Source of the DNA: Opitutaceae bacterium
GTDB lineage: Bacteria > Verrucomicrobiota > Verrucomicrobiia > Opitutales > Opitutaceae
Assembly (NCBI GenBank): GCA_014879845.1
Contig: JACSRI010000179.1
Coordinates: forward strand, 1-32,974
Direction of reading: 5' to 3'
Length of the DNA: 32,974 nucleotides
This document shows, one piece after another, positions 9,658 through 22,816 of this stretch. Numbering within the stretch: position 1 is the first letter of the stretch; each line of letters opens with the position of its first letter. The position numbers were made by a program, and so were the translations under genes. The notes beneath the pieces were generated by a model, which was not told the DNA's origin, ran no database searches, and was given only the letters and a program-made list of their open reading frames with translations.

Positions 9658-11436
9658 CTACGATTTCTTGAGACGGCTCTCGTGCGACGGGCGGACGGCC
9701 TCGCCGCCTGCCGCGCCCGACGCGGCGGCAAGCAGGCGCCGGCGCGTCGCAACGTCGCGCTTGCGATCGGTCCTGACCTCCAGGACACGCACGCCCGCGT
9801 CGGGAGACGCGCTGACGAGTGCATGAAGGTGGCCGCGGTCGCGCACCCGCACGTGGGGCACGCCGTGCGCGGCGCACAGGTGCGCGAAGTCAACGGACTG
9901 CGGCGTGGCGAAATACTCCTCGAAAGGCGGATCAAACTGCGCGACCGGCAGGTGCCCGAAGATGCCGCCGCCTCGGTTGTTGATCAGGACGACCGTCAAG
10001 CTGCCGCGCAGGTGGCGGGCGAGAAGCAGCCCGTTGCTGTCGTGCAGGAAGGCGAGGTCGCCGCAGAGCAGCACGGCCGCGCCGCCTCCGTGCGCCACGC
10101 CCAGCGCGGTCGAGAGCGTTCCGTCGATGCCGTTGGCGCCGCGGTTGAAGACAAATCGATGCCGTCGCGTGGAATGCGGCCAGAAGTATTCGACGTCGCG
10201 CACGGGCATGCTGCTCGCGACGAACACCGTGGTTTCATCAGGCAGTGCATGCGCGAGCGTCCAACCGGCCACCGGCTCGAAGAATCCCTCCGGTGCGTCG
10301 GCCTCGAGCCCGGCGCGGAGCGCCTCCGCGACCGACCGATCGGCCCGCACCCAGGCCTCTCGATAGCCGGCTTCGGCCGCGGGTATGCCCTCGGCCGCGA
10401 GCGCCTCGGGCGGCCACGGAAGGTGACGCGTGCGACCGTGCAGGGCATCGCGGTTGTCCGCCGTGGCGGCGACAAGCGTGATCTCGGCCCCACTCTCCTC
10501 GAGCCAGCCGCGCAGGACCTTGCTCGTCGGCCACGCCTCGAGGCAGAGGACATGCCGGGGCGCGAGGTCGCGCGCCGTCGGCTCGTGCCGGAGAATCACA
10601 TCATAGTGCGCGACGACCGCGGCCGCATCCGCCGTGTGGTGACGCAATGGAGACAACGCATCGGCCAGGATCGGCCAGCCAAGGCCCGTGGCGAGGGCCT
10701 GCACGGCGCGCACGTAACCTGCGGCATCGGGAGGACTGGCCGGGCCCGCGACGATCAGGCCGCGTGTGGTCGTCGGTCGTTGCCAGACCGTCGCCGCCGG
10801 GGCCGGAGGCACGACCGGCCTGAGGTGCTCAAAAAACGCCTCATCGATCGCGCGCGCGACGTCGTGCGCGGACGCGTCCTCGATCGGCGGCAGCGGATCG
10901 CGAAACGGCATGTTCAGGTGCACCGGCCCGCCGTGCGGCACGAGCGTGCGCTGCACGGCGTGCGCCAGCGTCTGCCGGGCATATTGCAGCATGGGCAGGC
11001 GCGCCTCGGGCACGGCGAACTCGTGGAAATGCGCGACGAACGCGCCGAAGAGTTTCTGTTGGTCGATGGTCTGCCCGGACATGCAGTCGCGCATTTCCGG
11101 CGGCCGGTCGGCCGTGACGACGAGCAGCGGCGTGCCGCTCTCGCGCGCCTCGATCACCGCGGGCAGGTAGTTGGCCCCGGCCGTGCCGGAGGTGCAGAGC
11201 AGCACCACGGGCCTGTGCGTGCGTTTGGCCAGGCCGAGCGCAAAAAAAGCCGCGGAACGCTCGTCAACGACGGGCACGCACTCCAGGCCGGGATGCCGCA
11301 CGAGCGCGAAGGTCAGCGGCGTCGAACGCGATCCCGGCGAGATCACCGCGTGGCGCAGGCCGGAGCGCACGAGCGTCTCGGCCAGCACGCTGCACCACAG
11401 GGCGTTGGTGTTCCGGGAATCGACGGCGGGCATCAT
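9658..11436 (-). CDS. menD: MenD, 2-succinyl-5-enolpyruvyl-6-hydroxy-3-cyclohexene-1-carboxylate synthase
   Basis: A 592-residue thiamine-diphosphate enzyme that adds the succinyl semialdehyde unit from 2-oxoglutarate to isochorismate in menaquinone synthesis. MenD features are clear: SPGSRSTPL (33-41), the ThDP-activating Glu59 in DERSAAFFALGLAK, TSGTAGANY (82-90), and the ThDP/Mg motif GDLAFLHDSNG (459-469) followed by NNRGGGIFGHLP from 486. SPGSRS and the GDLAFLHDSNG form distinguish it from acetolactate synthase. It is the only men gene in the window. It is also the only gene here with a clear Shine-Dalgarno: GGAGG at 11441-11445. Spacing (4 nt to the first ATG, 7 nt to the second at 11433) favours the second Met as the real start. 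The large sensor kinase ends 58 bp upstream on the same strand. Confidence 0.95.
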   Translation of the reverse strand: MMPAVDSRNTNALWCSVLAETLVRSGLRHAVISPGSRSTPLTFALVRHPGLECVPVVDERSAAFFALGLAKRTHRPVVLLCTSGTAGANYLPAVIEARESGTPLLVVTADRPPEMRDCMSGQTIDQQKLFGAFVAHFHEFAVPEARLPMLQYARQTLAHAVQRTLVPHGGPVHLNMPFRDPLPPIEDASAHDVARAIDEAFFEHLRPVVPPAPAATVWQRPTTTRGLIVAGPASPPDAAGYVRAVQALATGLGWPILADALSPLRHHTADAAAVVAHYDVILRHEPTARDLAPRHVLCLEAWPTSKVLRGWLEESGAEITLVAATADNRDALHGRTRHLPWPPEALAAEGIPAAEAGYREAWVRADRSVAEALRAGLEADAPEGFFEPVAGWTLAHALPDETTVFVASSMPVRDVEYFWPHSTRRHRFVFNRGANGIDGTLSTALGVAHGGGAAVLLCGDLAFLHDSNGLLLARHLRGSLTVVLINNRGGGIFGHLPVAQFDPPFEEYFATPQSVDFAHLCAAHGVPHVRVRDRGHLHALVSASPDAGVRVLEVRTDRKRDVATRRRLLAAASGAAGGEAVRPSHESRLKKS

Positions 11437-11494: not shown

Positions 11495-14400
11495 TCACAC
11501 GTCCGCCGCGGCGAGCACGCGCTGGAGCGTGAGGGTCAGCACGTCGACCGAGTAAGGCTTGGGCACCACCGCGGCGAAACCATGCTCGCGGTAATGCGCC
11601 ATGACGGGATCGTTGGAATAGCCGCTCGAGACGATGGCGCGGACGGCGGGGTCGATGGCCTTGAGCGCCTGGATGGTCTCGCGGCCGCCGAGGCCGCCCG
11701 GAACGGTCAGGTCGAGGATGACGGCGTCGAAACGCCGCCCGCCCTGCATGGCCGCCTGGTAGATGCGCACGCATTCGCCGCCGTCGGCCGCGACCTGCAC
11801 CTCGCATCCGAGGTGGCGCAGGCAGCGCTCGCCCAGCCGCCGGATGGTCTCTTCGTCATCCATGAGCAACACGCGGGCGTGAACCAGCGCGCGGCTGGCG
11901 GCAACCTCCACGGCCGTCGGCGCGGTCGCCGGCGTCGGTGCAGGCAGCGCATCGGCCGCCGGGATCCAAAGCCGGAAGATCGCCCCCTCGATCTCCGACG
12001 ACTCGATCGTGATCCGGCCACCGTGGCGCTTCACGATCGAATAGACGATGGCCATGCTGAAGCGGTCGCTGTCGGAGGTGGTCGTCGCGTACGGATCGAA
12101 GAATATCCGGAGCTTGTCCGGCGGCACCGGTCCACCACAGCCACGCAGCTCGATCTCGACACACCGACCCGCACCATCCGCCGGAGTGCCGCCCGAGCCT
12201 TCCGCCCGATTGGTCGCCGTGATGGAGACAACCCCACCGCGCGCCGTGGTGTCCACGCGGCCGCGCATGATGATGTTCTCGAGCGCGCGCGTGAGCTGGC
12301 CGCGGTCGGCGTGGACCGGCCAGAGATCCGGCGGCATCACCACCTCGGCGCGCGCCCGCGCCCCGGCCAGTACCCGGCGCACCACGCCGGAGACCAGGCA
12401 AGCCAGGTCGAGCGGTTCGAGCATCGGATCGCCGCCCTTGGCGAAGGTCACGAGCTGCTGGGTGAGCTGGTGCGCGCGGCCCGCGCTGTCCTCGATGTCG
12501 CGCAGGCACTCGCCCGCACGCTTGGCCACCTCCGCGTCGAAAAGCGCGACCGAGGCGTTGCCCATGATCGAGGTGAGGAGGTTGTTGAAGTCGTGCGCGA
12601 GCCCGCCGGCGAGCAGGCCCAGCGCCTTGAACCGATGCGCCCGCTCGAGCTCCGCCTCGAGGCCCGCCTGGCGCTCGAGCTGCCGCCGGATCTCCGCGGT
12701 CTGTTGCACGACCCGCCGCCGCAGGAAGAGCGCGGCCCCTCCGGCCACGACAAACGCGCCGGCAAACACGCCCGACACGGCGACGAGCCGCCGAACCGTC
12801 CAGAACCGAGCAGCCCGGAGCAGGACGATGTCGCGCTCCGCGCGGGCGTGCAGTTGAAATCCCCGCGGCTCACGCGCGTCGCTGTATTCGAGCTGATACA
12901 ACCCGGTCACGCCGACCACCGCCCCGGCCTGAATCGCCGGATCGAGGGCAAGGCCGCCGCCTCCGTCGAGCACACACTCGAAATAGGTCCCGTCCTCGTG
13001 GAGGGTGAGACGCACGCGACCCGGCTGGCGCGCGATGTCCGCCACCACGCCATGCATGCGCACCAACCTCAAGTCGAGCCCGCGCGCGAGCGGGGCTTTG
13101 GGCGAGACCTCCACGGTTTCCGGCGCGCGTCCCGGACCGACGCGGTGCACGACGGCCTCGCGCAAGACCGCTCGCGCGCCGGCACGGCCGACGATGCCGA
13201 CCGCCTCGACCCGATCGCCCGCCTCGAACGGTCCCATGTCGCGCGTGAGCACACGCGCCGCCGTGGCCCCCTCCTGGATCACCAGGCCTTCACCCGGCTC
13301 GAAATCCAGCACCGTGCCGGCCACGCGCGCACGCACCATGTCGCGCACGGTCCCCAACTGCCGCAACCCGTCCAGCGCCTGGATCGGAAGGTCAAAGAGG
13401 TCCGCCGGCGCATCTTCCTCGACGGTGATGTCGTGCAGAAACGGCACGCGCAGCAACGTGCCGGTGATGCGACCGGCCTCATCCCGCACCGACTCGCACA
13501 CTCCGTGCACGCGGATGAGCGAACCCGGCGTGGCGACAAACGGCACGGGCGACTGCAGGTGCGCCACGAACTCGCCATCGGGACTGGTCACGTGGATCCA
13601 GCGCCAGTCGCCTTCCGAGATCATCTCCCGCAGAAACCCCCGGATGCCGACCCACTGGCCATCCTCTGAGCCGGTGCGCGCCTGCTCGACCGTGATGCCG
13701 TGGGGCTTCGGATGCCCCATGGCATCGACGTCGATCACCTGGTCAGCCTCCACCTCGACGCCTTCCGGCGTGACCCGCGTGCGACCGATGACCCGCACCG
13801 AGCGCTGCAGCGGCGGATACGACATGCCGTCGAGCCGCCGCACTCGCACGCCGCCACTCATGTCGTGCAGGTAGAAGAAATCCACGCCGGGCATCGACCA
13901 CACGGCGCCGCCGTAGAGATCGACCGACCGACCGCGCTCGGCCTGCTGGCGGTTGAGCGCGCGGACCTGCTCGATCCGGCGCAGCGGCCCGTCGGGCGCG
14001 GCACCTTCGTCGGCGGCCGGTTCGGGCGGGTTCGCCGCGTCCGACGGTGCGACGCGAAACAAACCGGCCTCGAGAATCCAGCGCGCCCCGTTTACCGCCA
14101 CACGCCCCACCGCCTCGACCTCCGTGCCGAGCGGAAGACGCTCCCGCTGCAGCGATTGCACGGTGACCTCGCCCGCCGCGTCGCGCACGACGATGGACAC
14201 ACCGGTGTCGCGCCGCTGCAGGCGGCCGCGCACGCGCACGATCGTGCCGCGCGGCACCTCGTTGATGCGCGTGGTCTCGGTCGCGGGGATATCAAAGGAG
14301 GCCGCCGTCGCGACGTCGCCGGTCACCTCGATGTCGCGTTCGCGCGCGATCCACAGCTCGACCGTCGACTCCGTGCCCGTCGGGCCAAGACGGCCTGAAT

Positions 14401-15025
14401 ACACGGCCTGGAGGCGGACAAACTTGCGCCGCAGATCGGGGACCTTCGCGGGATCGTCCGGCGCGACCCAGCCGATCGCCGGCCGGTCCTCGACCATCAG
14501 GTAGAGCCGCAGGTGCTCGGCATCGATCAGCTGCTGGTCGTCCACATAGGCCGTCGTCGTGACCACCCGCCGGGTGAAAGTGTCGATGTCGCCAAAACGC
14601 CCGCTTGTGTCGAGCGGTTGCACCGGCGCCTCCTCCTCGAGCACGGTCACCCGCACGGTCTCGGCATCGAGTCCGCGCGCCGGCACGAACGTGCCCTCGA
14701 TGAGCACGCGCTGGCCGTTGCGCAGCGGCAGATCGCGGCCGGACAACTGCACGTAGCGGGCGCCCACCGGCCCCTCCATCCACATGTTGTTCCAGGAGTT
14801 GTCGATGAAGTTGACCCGGCCCTCGAGCCGCAGGCGATGCATCCGACCGCGATCCTCGGGGGCCATCCGCCATACGACATCGGGATCGTCGGTGAATGGC
14901 AGGGCCTCGTCATCGGCACGTACGGGGGCCCAGGTCACAAGGCTGGCGCCGATCACGACCATGACCGTGATCGGTCGCACGAGTCTGTGCGCCCGGCAGC
15001 GCAGGAGGAACTCGGAGACCATCAT
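11495..15025 (-). CDS. OB-fold-repeat hybrid sensor kinase with degenerate ATPase domain
   Basis: A 1176-residue membrane protein. Residues 1-36 are a signal or anchor segment ending APVRAD. About 38-740 is periplasmic and built of roughly seven OB-fold-like beta repeats (VRVRGRLQRRDTGVSI and RVAGTVLDFEPGEG are examples). A membrane helix lies at about 747-768, then a coiled coil and an HisKA-type box GLAHDFNNLL with His811. A C-terminal receiver (1050-1176) has the acidic pair in LLMDDEE, Asp1105 in VILDLTVPG, SSGYS and Lys1156. The ATPase domain between them keeps its fold landmarks (FFDPYATT, VYSIVKRHGG) but lacks the nucleotide motifs. The N-box has Arg921 where Asn is expected. G1 reads LRGCGG rather than DxGxG. 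G2 (986-992) reads SDRFSMA rather than GxGLGL. It may be a pseudokinase. The frame is open upstream to 15196, but the ATG at 15025 (or 15022) starts the signal sequence. Confidence 0.85.
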   Translation of the reverse strand: MMVSEFLLRCRAHRLVRPITVMVVIGASLVTWAPVRADDEALPFTDDPDVVWRMAPEDRGRMHRLRLEGRVNFIDNSWNNMWMEGPVGARYVQLSGRDLPLRNGQRVLIEGTFVPARGLDAETVRVTVLEEEAPVQPLDTSGRFGDIDTFTRRVVTTTAYVDDQQLIDAEHLRLYLMVEDRPAIGWVAPDDPAKVPDLRRKFVRLQAVYSGRLGPTGTESTVELWIARERDIEVTGDVATAASFDIPATETTRINEVPRGTIVRVRGRLQRRDTGVSIVVRDAAGEVTVQSLQRERLPLGTEVEAVGRVAVNGARWILEAGLFRVAPSDAANPPEPAADEGAAPDGPLRRIEQVRALNRQQAERGRSVDLYGGAVWSMPGVDFFYLHDMSGGVRVRRLDGMSYPPLQRSVRVIGRTRVTPEGVEVEADQVIDVDAMGHPKPHGITVEQARTGSEDGQWVGIRGFLREMISEGDWRWIHVTSPDGEFVAHLQSPVPFVATPGSLIRVHGVCESVRDEAGRITGTLLRVPFLHDITVEEDAPADLFDLPIQALDGLRQLGTVRDMVRARVAGTVLDFEPGEGLVIQEGATAARVLTRDMGPFEAGDRVEAVGIVGRAGARAVLREAVVHRVGPGRAPETVEVSPKAPLARGLDLRLVRMHGVVADIARQPGRVRLTLHEDGTYFECVLDGGGGLALDPAIQAGAVVGVTGLYQLEYSDAREPRGFQLHARAERDIVLLRAARFWTVRRLVAVSGVFAGAFVVAGGAALFLRRRVVQQTAEIRRQLERQAGLEAELERAHRFKALGLLAGGLAHDFNNLLTSIMGNASVALFDAEVAKRAGECLRDIEDSAGRAHQLTQQLVTFAKGGDPMLEPLDLACLVSGVVRRVLAGARARAEVVMPPDLWPVHADRGQLTRALENIIMRGRVDTTARGGVVSITATNRAEGSGGTPADGAGRCVEIELRGCGGPVPPDKLRIFFDPYATTTSDSDRFSMAIVYSIVKRHGGRITIESSEIEGAIFRLWIPAADALPAPTPATAPTAVEVAASRALVHARVLLMDDEETIRRLGERCLRHLGCEVQVAADGGECVRIYQAAMQGGRRFDAVILDLTVPGGLGGRETIQALKAIDPAVRAIVSSGYSNDPVMAHYREHGFAAVVPKPYSVDVLTLTLQRVLAAADV

Positions 15026-15230
15026 GATGGAACGAGGGGCGAACGCGGGGAAGCGAGGCGAAGCTGCCCGCCGCACGAGCGACTCGCAAGACCGGGATGC
15101 GCGCGCGCCGGGATAGACCAGCGAAAAAAACGGCGGATGGGTGAATCCCGGATGCCGTACGCGGCCGCGTGGCCTGATCGCGGGCGCACCGGACATTTGC
15201 AGTGCTGCCGTTCAGGGATTCATTCCCTGC

Positions 15231-19725: not shown

Positions 19726-20355
19726 CTACAACTCGATGATCCCACGCTGCGCCGCGGCCGTGACGGCCTCGGTGCGCGCGGAGACGTGGAGCTTGCTCAG
19801 GATGTTTTTCATGTGGTCCTTCACCGTGTTCTCCGAGATCGAGAGTTCACGGGCGATTTCCTTGTTCGCACGCCCCCGGGCGATCAGGCGCAGCACTTCG
19901 ATCTCGCGGGTCGAGAGCGGCTCGTAGGTCTTGCGCATGGCGAGCCGGCTCGCGACGTCGCGCGGTATCCATCGCTCGCCCGCCGCGACGGCGCGGATCG
20001 CCGGGATCAGGCCCTCGCCGGTCGAGCTCTTGAGCACGTAGCCCATGGCGCCGGCCTCGAGGGCACGGTGGATGTCCTCGTCGCCGCTGTAGGCGGTGAG
20101 CACGAGAATGCGAGCGTCGGGATGGCTGCGGCGTATGGTCTCGATCGCCTCGTTGCCCCCGAGCACGGGCATGCGCAGGTCGAGGAGGGCGACGTCCGGC
20201 CGGTGGCGCTCGAAATACTCCACTGCCTGCGCGCCGTCGGCCGCCTGCGCGACAACCGCCATGTCCGGCTCGCAATCGATGACCGCGGCCAGCCCGCTGC
20301 GCACGATGAAGTGATCGTCCGCGACGAGGATGCGGATCTTGGCGTCGGCACTCAT
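19726..20355 (-). CDS. NarL/LuxR-type response regulator
   Basis: A 209-residue transcription factor. The receiver domain (about 7-122) has the acidic pair Asp13-Asp14, phospho-acceptor Asp59 in [11 protein letters not shown], Thr87 and Lys109. The C-terminal LuxR helix-turn-helix (about 144-205) carries [20 protein letters not shown] followed by [18 protein letters not shown]. Its ATG overlaps the stop of the sensor kinase gene by 4 bp (ATGA), so the two form a translationally coupled pair. The locus is divergent from the TonB receptor/GH30 genes, which are its most likely targets; this is inference from position. No shared operator has been shown. Confidence 0.93.
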
Positions 20356-22592
20356 GGGTTGACCGTGTCCGCCTGTCCAGCCTGCGGCGCCGGACCACAG
20401 GCCGCTTCGAGCGGAATCTCCAGTGCCACGCGCGTGCCGCGTGACGGCGAGCCCTCCACGCGCACGACGCCTCCCATGCGTCTCGCCCGCTCGGTCATGC
20501 CGACGAGCCCGAAGTGGCTCTCGCCGTGCTCGACGGCACGCGCGTGATCGATGCCCACACCGTTGTCCTCGATGCGCAGCACCAGGCGGTGCGGCTCGCA
20601 GGTCAGCTCGATCGCGATGTGGGTGGCGCGGGCGTGCTTCGCGACGTTGGTCAGGGCCTCCTGCCCGATGCGAAGGACGTTCTCCTCCACGACCTCGGGC
20701 AGGCCGCGCATGTCGCCGTCGACCCTGAACTCGAGCGTGATCCCCGTGCCGTCGACCAGTTGCTCCGCGCTGCGCCGCAGCGCCCGCGCGAGGTCGAACT
20801 GCTCGAGCTCGCGCGAGCGCAGGTCCCAAATGGAGTGGCGCAACTCGATCTGGCTCTGCTGCAGCCAGCTGCGCGCGAGCTGCAGGTGATAGCTCGATTT
20901 CTCCGGTGTGCGCTCGAAGAGCTTGGCCGCGGTGTCGAGATGCAGCGCGATGCCCGCGAGTGTTTGCTCTAGGGTATCGTGCAAGTCCCGCGCGAGACGT
21001 GTGCGCTCGGCCAGCACGGCCTTGAACTGCACCTCGGCCGTCCGGCGCGCGGTCATCTCCACCTGCAGTTGGGCGGAGCGCTCGATGACCTTCTGCTCAA
21101 GGGTGTCGTGCGCCTCCTGCAACTCGCGCTGGGCCTGCTCGCGCTCGCGCACGACGACGCGCAAGGCGGCGTTCTTGCGCGACACGGTGAGCGACCACGA
21201 GGCGACGAGGACGAGGACGGCACTCAGCAGTCCCACGCCCGCGAGGAGCCGCTGCGGCGTCCACCAACTCGGCCGCTCGTGCACCCGCATGCCTCCGGGT
21301 GATGGCAGCAGCAGCGTGAGCGCCTGCAGCCGGCCCATGGTATCGACCTTGGAGACACAAACGCCGTCGACATCGACCACGCTGCCCAGCGGCACGGCGT
21401 CGAAGGCCGCGTCGTCGGCATCGGTCACATGCTCATACTCCACGGTGAAGGCCATCTCTTCGCCCTGCATGAACCACGTCGTCGCGCGGGTCGCGGCGGT
21501 CGCGCCCACCCGCGCCAGCGGTCGCGTCGTGCGATCGAGGATGCGCCCGCGCACCGTGATGAGCTCGGCATGGTGCCAGCCGACTCTCACCTCGGCAAAG
21601 GGAACGGCCCGCGCCGCCGCGGGCGTCATCGTCACCCCGGTCAACCGCAGGGTCGCGTCGCGCAGGAGCGGAAGGTGATTCTCGAACTCCAGGAAACCCA
21701 CCGCCTCCACCTCGCTGCCCGGCGGCACCGGCTCGGCCGACGCCGTGTGGACACGCAGGCCGCCGGTGGCGTCCTGGACAAACACCGACTCGCCCGCGCG
21801 CTGCAGCGTCACGACGCCGCGCACGTGCATGCGGCCCATCGCCTCGCCCGCGCGCCGGTATTGGGCGACGCGGTTGAGCGCGATCGCCGGCTGCGCGAAC
21901 GGGTCCTCCTGTTCCGGGGCGATCACGAGAAAGTCCTCGGTGCGCGGCACATACACCGCGACCGACGTGAGGTGCCGCAGCGCCGCGTTGTAGTGCGTCG
22001 CGGCCGTGCCGCGCACACGCACGCGTGCCGCCACGAGCCCGGCGGGCAGGTCACCGCCCGCACCCGAGGGCGCGAACACCTCGAGCCGGTATCCGCCAAC
22101 GGCGAGGTCCAGGCGCAACCGGCCATCCTCGATGCGCGCCGTGCGCACGACGCCGGAAGTCTCCACGCGGACGCCGTCCTCGATGCCCGCCATGAGATTC
22201 TCGATCGAGACCACGCGCGCCTCGGGCAGCGGTGACTCGCCAGTCTTTGTCCAGCGCGGCGCGCTGATGATCGGCGCGAACGCACCGGGATGGCTCACGC
22301 CCTCGACGGTCACGACCTCGCCCGGGCGCGGCTGGGGGCGGCCGAGGTTTTCCACGAAAACTCCGCCGGTCTCGTCCTGGAGGAAGAACTGTCCGGTCCA
22401 GTCCGGCTCGGCCGCAGTCACCACGCCGCTCAGGCGCACGGGCAGCCGCAAGCCTGCTTGTTCGGCCGTTAGAGACAACACAGCGGCGGCGGAATCGAGC
22501 GGCGCCCGTGCCGGCTCCTCCGCGCGCGCCGGGCCCAGCGAAGCGGCCAGGCTGATCGCCGCGATGCACAGAAATCTCCCTGCGAGAGTCAT
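20352..22592 (-). CDS. Sensor histidine kinase with OB-fold-repeat periplasmic domain
   Basis: A 746-residue membrane kinase. Residues 1-24 are a signal peptide (ending GPARAEE). About 30-440 is periplasmic and consists of about four OB-fold-like repeats, each with a pattern like [20 protein letters not shown] followed by DETGGVFVE, or [21 protein letters not shown] membrane helix spans 449-470, followed by a long coiled coil. The NarL-class HisKA_3 domain follows, with His538 in [14 protein letters not shown]. The ATPase domain has an intact N-box (Asn649, [13 protein letters not shown]), G1 (EDNGVGI, Asp676) and GLVGMTERA. The frame is open upstream to 22715, but the ATG at 22592 places the signal peptide. 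It is the cognate partner of the regulator that follows. The ligand is unknown; the neighbouring TonB receptor and glycosidase suggest a carbohydrate. Confidence 0.92.
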
Positions 22593-22661
22593 GGGGTCGG
22601 TTCCGGGCTGCCGGTGGCCCCATTTCGCCCGATACCTCGCCTGTTTCCAAGTCCCGTCTGA

Positions 22662-22675
22662 CCACCCGAAAGTGG
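22662..22675. promoter_or_regulatory. Candidate operator in HK/TonB-receptor divergent region
   Basis: CCAC (22662-22665), six bases CCGAAA, GTGG (22672-22675) form a short inverted repeat inside ACCACCCGAAAGTGGGAT. It lies in the 224-bp gap between the sensor kinase and the TonB receptor, where a NarL-type regulator could bind. Evidence is only position and symmetry. Confidence 0.25.
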
Positions 22676-22816
22676 GATGTGTCGGCGCACGCGGCCTGTT
22701 ATCCTCGGGCACCATCGGCGCGGGACCCCATCCGTCACCCGCCCGACCGACTCACGGCGCGCCCAGCGCCGTTGCTCCACCAAAACCCTCCCATCGCCGA
22801 CACCACCCGATTGGCT

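Follow-up and report, generated by a model that had tools for sequence, protein, structure and literature searches.

What is left for a histidine kinase to do once it has lost its own kinase reaction? This question is raised by one gene in a 32,974-nucleotide stretch of DNA from an Opitutaceae bacterium (contig JACSRI010000179.1; the window, below, means this whole stretch), whose product carries an altered ATP site between an intact phosphoacceptor histidine and an intact receiver. In eukaryotes, pseudokinases form a large field of study; histidine pseudokinases are already a known kind, of which few have been described. The best known of these lack either the histidine (DivL) or the sensor and receiver (ChpT and Spo0B). 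In the family considered here, the two residues that carry phosphate are kept and the ATP site alone is lost; intact sister kinases are available as controls, and the family would allow the role of a histidine kinase without its own kinase reaction to be addressed directly. In the literature searched, mostly outside subscription journals, we found no conserved family that keeps sensor, histidine, and receiver and loses only the ATP site, with a fixed lid; a search of the same literature for histidine pseudokinase gave no match.

The pseudokinase and its nucleotide-binding motifs

The gene lies on the minus strand, which the initial annotation did not mention. Its product of 1176 amino acids would gain 57 residues (1233 aa) if translation began at an upstream in-frame ATG at 15196, as in the ORF listing (ORF 11495-15196). 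The features of the gene are as follows; cassette members are the ten proteins, described below, that share the altered lid.

11495..15025, minus strand: pseudokinase gene, 1176 aa (residues 1-1176 at 15025-11498, stop at 11495)
14915..14983, minus strand: putative hydrophobic N-terminal segment, residues ~15-37, a signal peptide or first membrane helix (sequence inspection)
12791..14902, minus strand: sensor region, residues 42-745, tandem OB folds (Pfam tRNA_anti-codon OB match, AlphaFold2, Foldseek)
12725..12793, minus strand: putative membrane helix (hydrophobic), residues ~745-767 (sequence inspection)
12422..12670, minus strand: DHp domain, residues 786-868 (HisKA 30.1 bits, cut-off 26.9; helical hairpin in the model)
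12593..12595, minus strand: His811, the phosphoacceptor in H-D-F-N-N, kept in 10/10 cassette members
11954..12412, minus strand: CA (ATP-binding) domain with altered motifs, residues 872-1024 (HATPase_c 35.0 bits, cut-off 26.4)
12263..12265, minus strand: Arg921, replacing the N-box Asn found in 37/37 intact relatives
12125..12148, minus strand: G1 region LRGCGGPV, residues 960-967, Asp962 lost (Gly962) (alignment to intact relatives)
12050..12070, minus strand: lid (G2) SDRFSMA, residues 986-992, with Arg988 (alignment to intact relatives)
11516..11878, minus strand: receiver domain, residues 1050-1170, with Asp1105 and Lys1156 (Response_reg 51.9 bits, Pfam)

The AlphaFold2 model of the sensor has a mean pLDDT of 88.5, and its Foldseek matches are tandem OB proteins, for example RPA and HIN-200 domains. 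For the DHp-CA-receiver part the mean pLDDT is 85.7, and the predicted CA fold is complete and normal. The structural matches of the DHp-CA model are the histidine kinases ShkA, ZraS, and CckA plus the pseudokinase DivL (4q20); the receiver matches CheY-like domains with Z ~20, and the VIA-align list is filled by receiver-domain matches. Because Pfam HisKA, HATPase_c, and Response_reg still match, the CA domain is in frame and recognizable. Features of an active hybrid kinase (HisKA with His811, the HATPase_c fold, and a receiver with Asp1105 and Lys1156) are thus present in the protein, but the intact N, G1, and G2 nucleotide motifs of such a kinase are absent from it. The order of the cytoplasmic domains (HisKA, HATPase_c, REC) is that of CckA-type hybrid kinases. 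HisKinCckACaul, covering residues 785-1165, is the best NCBIfam match, but at 159.3 bits it lies below the cut-off of 1000, and the CckA DHp-CA structure (5idj) is the best solved relative by sequence. CckA, however, keeps its ATP site and senses through PAS domains, whereas the window protein has lost the ATP site and has an OB-fold sensor.

In an alignment, N921, D962, G964, G966, G988, and G990 are each found in 37 of 37 intact relatives; the window protein has R, G, G, P, R, and S at these positions, as well as an extra residue, R923, inserted in the N-box. His811, Asp812, Asn815, Asp1105, and Lys1156 are intact. The window genome encodes other kinases, and all 28 of those that were aligned over the lid region have a lid of the G-L-G-L type. 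The initial annotation had numbered His811, Arg921, Asp1105, and Lys1156 correctly, and the changes that it read in the N-box (Asn to Arg921) and the lid (SDRFSMA) do fall on residues invariant in the 37 intact relatives. Its statement that the G1 Asp-x-Gly had been replaced holds for Asp962; the motif is not wholly gone, as Gly964 is kept. It had also argued against a frameshift, and rightly, since the motifs are changed inside an aligned frame and comparable lids occur in other genomes. Frameshift and assembly error are both ruled out on these grounds, and since lids of this kind recur in related genomes, the alteration is not the product of chance or a sequencing error.

Distribution, constraint, and ancestry of the altered module

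The family search covered 252 genomes of Opitutaceae-like Verrucomicrobiota, in which the window genome, a 5.4 Mb draft, is the sole genome of its genus. Ten proteins have an altered lid: the window protein, two each from G010, G055, and G063, and one each from G020, G083, and G071. In all ten, the lid reads D-x-R-F-x-[LM]-A or close to it, with Gly988 changed to Arg in nine and to Gln in one, and Leu989 changed to Phe in nine. The N-box Asn is replaced by His, Arg, or Tyr in 9/10, F-D-P-Y is present in 10/10, and only the window protein lacks the G1 Asp. The statement that all three boxes are changed is therefore true of the window protein, but the loss of the third is private to it, because the G1 Asp is lost only there. 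The two nearest full-length relatives, 50-51% identical to the window protein, have the altered lid and N-box in common with it, as do three proteins of genus g21 and a partial copy from G083; intact proteins form the sister groups. A private degenerate copy, which intact orthologues would have indicated, is ruled out by these relatives in other genomes with the same lid and N-box changes.

A profile built from the ten cassette members ranks exactly those ten first across the family (547-662 bits, compared with at most 535 for intact kinases), and among 71 distinct kinases read at further loci, the GLGL-type lid is missing only in the ten. Outside the family, among the matches whose loci were read, a search of the order gave no full-length match with a dead lid; in a search of the phylum, scores in the cassette range occurred only in G000, G020, and G063, and the matches read there have GLGL-type lids. 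An eleventh copy (L113 6857-10542, G172:C1) belongs to clade A (see below) and has the lid EKRFALA, but it is split into several frames and is either a pseudogene or a sequence error, the draft genome being 69% complete. To judge from this distribution, the loss of the ATP site looks like an old, retained trait, common to nine relatives of the window protein. Lid changes of other kinds are also seen. Those of L094 (G071) and L052 (G057) differ and are placed elsewhere on the trees; at L069 (4998 and 7237) and L077 (4953 and 7156), two hybrid kinases are neighbors, one intact and one whose lid is degenerate (DGLELY), which appears to be a separate loss.

Constraint is unevenly spread over the protein. 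With the topology fixed, the CA/sensor ratio of branch lengths is 2.18 in clade A and 1.03 in its intact sister clade, and CA/receiver is 3.17 versus 1.66, whereas DHp/sensor (0.83 versus 0.61) and receiver/sensor (0.69 versus 0.62) are close. For clade B, which has three sequences only, the corresponding values are 0.73 versus 0.57 (CA/sensor) and 1.58 versus 0.57 (CA/receiver) in its own intact sisters. The rate of the CA domain is thus roughly double that in the intact sister clade, while DHp, receiver, and sensor are not faster. Over the same ten members, HDFNN is invariant, and so are receiver residues Asp1057, Asp1105, Ser1134, and Lys1156 (alignment positions 288, 336, 365, and 387). 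Because the CA ratios are high while HDFNN and the receiver residues are fixed, constraint appears to be relaxed on the ATP site and not on the residues that carry phosphate. The fast CA domain, together with the copy in G172 that is broken by frame changes, would also fit a gene that is decaying without function; this is very improbable, given open frames of at least about 1100 codons in lineages that are 38-51% identical, DHp and receiver active sites that are fixed, and a new lid that is nearly so.

The descent of the ten members differs with the part of the protein that is used. In a tree without the CA domain, they split into clade A (seven members, the window protein included) and clade B (three), and in a sensor-only tree, A and B as one clade are rejected (log-likelihood 172.7 lower, AU p = 2e-145). 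In a tree of DHp, CA, and receiver from which the N, G1, and G2 columns have been removed, A and B join in a single clade (99/97.8), and topologies that put B or A beside its sensor sisters are rejected (p = 0.0006 and 0.0009); the single clade persists (100) upon rooting with intact-kinase outgroups. Two independent losses in A and B, the reading that the tree without CA would give, are disfavored by the same motif-stripped tree (p = 0.0006/0.0009). A single loss of the ATP site, followed by recombination between sensor and transmitter (a sensor swap), is likely on this phylogenetic evidence. It is held as likely rather than proven because the AU tests on single domains are weaker (0.066 and 0.109 for DHp plus CA alone, 0.516 and 0.15 for REC alone) and because block identities give a modest excess towards clade A, mainly at residues 869-910 and 1110-1170. 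The alternative to a single loss is convergence of the modules under similarly relaxed constraint. A fuller history, which we regard as rather doubtful, is that an ancestral DHp-CA-receiver module lost the use of ATP, gained the fixed D-x-R-F lid, and later joined two lineages of OB-fold sensor, so that a recombined dead module would have acquired a new activity, with Arg988 and Phe989 in a role that the old lid did not have.

Proposed phosphate handling by a kinase with an altered ATP site

We tentatively favor the reading that the window protein is a membrane-bound, sensor-gated histidine phosphotransferase/phosphatase, descended from a hybrid histidine kinase, which other kinases load or drain. 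In this proposed mechanism, His811 would not be loaded from the protein's own ATP, and the CA domain would persist in folded form, to serve in docking or in conformational change. The geometry of the DHp domain would be set by the OB-fold sensor, and depending on that geometry, His811/Asn815 would either pass phosphate to receivers or strip it from them; these receivers could be the protein's own Asp1105 or response regulators that other kinases have phosphorylated. Such a mode of working would resemble that of ChpT and Spo0B, with a sensor and a receiver of its own added.

Spo0B has DHp-like and CA-like folds, and its CA part no longer serves as an ATPase. ChpT has the same two folds, and the CA-like part without ATPase motifs recurs in the window protein, where the change is a loss of motifs only; ChpT and Spo0B have neither sensor nor receiver, whereas the window protein has both and its HATPase_c domain still scores above the cut-off. 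The CA part of ChpT no longer serves as an ATPase (PMC9981736), and ChpT phosphorylates CtrA and CpdR although its CA-like domain is functionally degenerate (PMC9981736). In HisKA proteins, a Thr or Asn at H+4 is needed for phosphatase activity, while the kinase reaction, and not the phosphatase, depends on the acidic residue that follows the His (PMC3510030). A phosphotransferase/phosphatase is favored because the acidic residue at H+1 and the Asn at H+4 are both kept, and because ChpT works with a degenerate CA domain. Against this reading stand Asp812, which is kept in 10/10 and would be superfluous for a pure phosphatase, the chance of weak nucleotide binding, and the lack of a partner kinase or response regulator gene beside the window gene. 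Of what the initial annotation had proposed, the dead ATP site stands as a conserved trait; the roles that it offered (phosphatase, acceptor, and switch) are not separated from one another.

The protein might instead be an active kinase of a noncanonical sort, whose remodeled N-box and lid would continue to bind ATP, perhaps with a Mg2+ geometry other than the usual one. A CA fold that is complete in the predicted model, a G1 Asp in 9/10 members and F-D-P-Y in all, and a lid that has been replaced by a near-fixed D-x-R-F, not by random drift, are consistent with such a kinase. It is nonetheless improbable, for none of the 37 intact relatives departs from the N-box Asn or the lid Gly, the window protein has lost the G1 Asp as well, and the CA domain evolves ~2x as fast relative to the other domains. 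Weak binding of nucleotide by the cassette proteins is possible, because 9/10 retain the G1 Asp and most landmarks of the fold remain.

A DivL-like scaffold or reversed sensor, which would bind phosphorylated response regulators and signal by its shape with no handling of phosphate, is another reading to be weighed. DivL, found among the structural matches of the window protein (4q20), is a pseudokinase that binds TNP-ATP weakly (57 uM) and has neither kinase nor phosphatase activity (PMC4211667). It has a histidine kinase fold with impaired use of ATP (PMC4211667), as the window protein appears to have from its motifs; however, DivL has PAS sensors, no receiver, and a Tyr (Tyr550) in place of the His, whereas the window protein keeps His811 and its receiver. 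The motif residues His, Asp, and Asn are kept in 10/10, as are Asp and Lys in the receiver; all would be superfluous for a scaffold, which makes this reading quite unlikely. Handling of phosphate is favored over a pure scaffold because His-Asp-x-x-Asn and the active site of the receiver are fixed while the CA domain drifts.

The main rival to the favored phosphotransferase/phosphatase is a heterodimer, in which the CA domain of an intact paralogue would phosphorylate His811 in trans and one complex would read two sensors. The retention in 10/10 members of His811 and of the acidic Asp812, on which the kinase reaction of HisKA proteins depends (PMC3510030), would be explained in this way, and candidate partners exist: the window genome has an intact full-length relative (L002, 38% identical), and most genomes with a cassette member have intact members of the family. 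There is also a precedent in ChrS, since inactive ChrS raised output via its paralogue HrrS and native ChrS-HrrS heterodimers were seen in a two-hybrid assay (PMC9491836). In ChrS_CA-fs the CA domain is inactivated while sensor and DHp remain (PMC9491836), as in the window protein, but it is a laboratory frameshift without a receiver and not a naturally conserved family with one. Moreover, the His of the pseudokinase is dispensable in ChrS, and truncated ChrS gave no two-hybrid interaction (PMC9491836). Homodimers are usual for DHp domains, no fixed genomic pairing was found, and in G063 the His is missing from the only other full-length OB-sensor match that has a HisKA-type transmitter of this kind. 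On balance, we consider a heterodimer unlikely.

Genus g21 has further kinases with an OB sensor, L124 (G063), L115 (G127), L116 (G089), L151 (G144), and L153 (G110), in which N, G1, and G2 are intact. In the first four, the phospho-His is replaced (AQDFNE, TRDFDS, ARDFDD, and ARDFDG, respectively); the motif of L153 lies outside the part read. Three of these g21 kinases were read over their full length and lack a receiver; kinases of this type are the converse of the window protein. The His-less L151 (G144:C1:379-3402) is read through four in-frame TAG codons. A fixed reciprocal pairing of cassette members with these His-less kinases of intact ATP site was dropped because such kinases also occur in genomes in which no cassette member was detected.

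Gene neighborhood

The genes adjoining the pseudokinase include no response regulator, phosphotransferase, or partner kinase. Some 60 bases downstream of it lies the following gene:

9658..11436, minus strand: menD, menaquinone synthesis (TIGR00173 453 bits, cut-off 244.2)

In the two nearest relatives (G010 and G055), menD is likewise downstream on the same strand (L108 4195-5925 and L109 8815-10554), with one extra ORF of 156 aa between it and the pseudokinase gene. In genus g21, two clade A genes each adjoin a gene (L111 11741-12646 and L117 6361-7698) whose product has a TPP_enzyme_C domain and may be a subunit of a 2-oxoacid:ferredoxin oxidoreductase. Other kinases are encoded around L110 (G063), among them a PAS-GAF hybrid kinase and a REC-HisKA-HATPase protein. 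The window itself holds a second kinase of 787 aa (20352-22715, minus strand), in which a related sensor of the OB type is combined with a HisKA_3 domain; its gene is divergent from a run of genes for a TonB-dependent receptor, a GH30 protein, and a sugar transporter.
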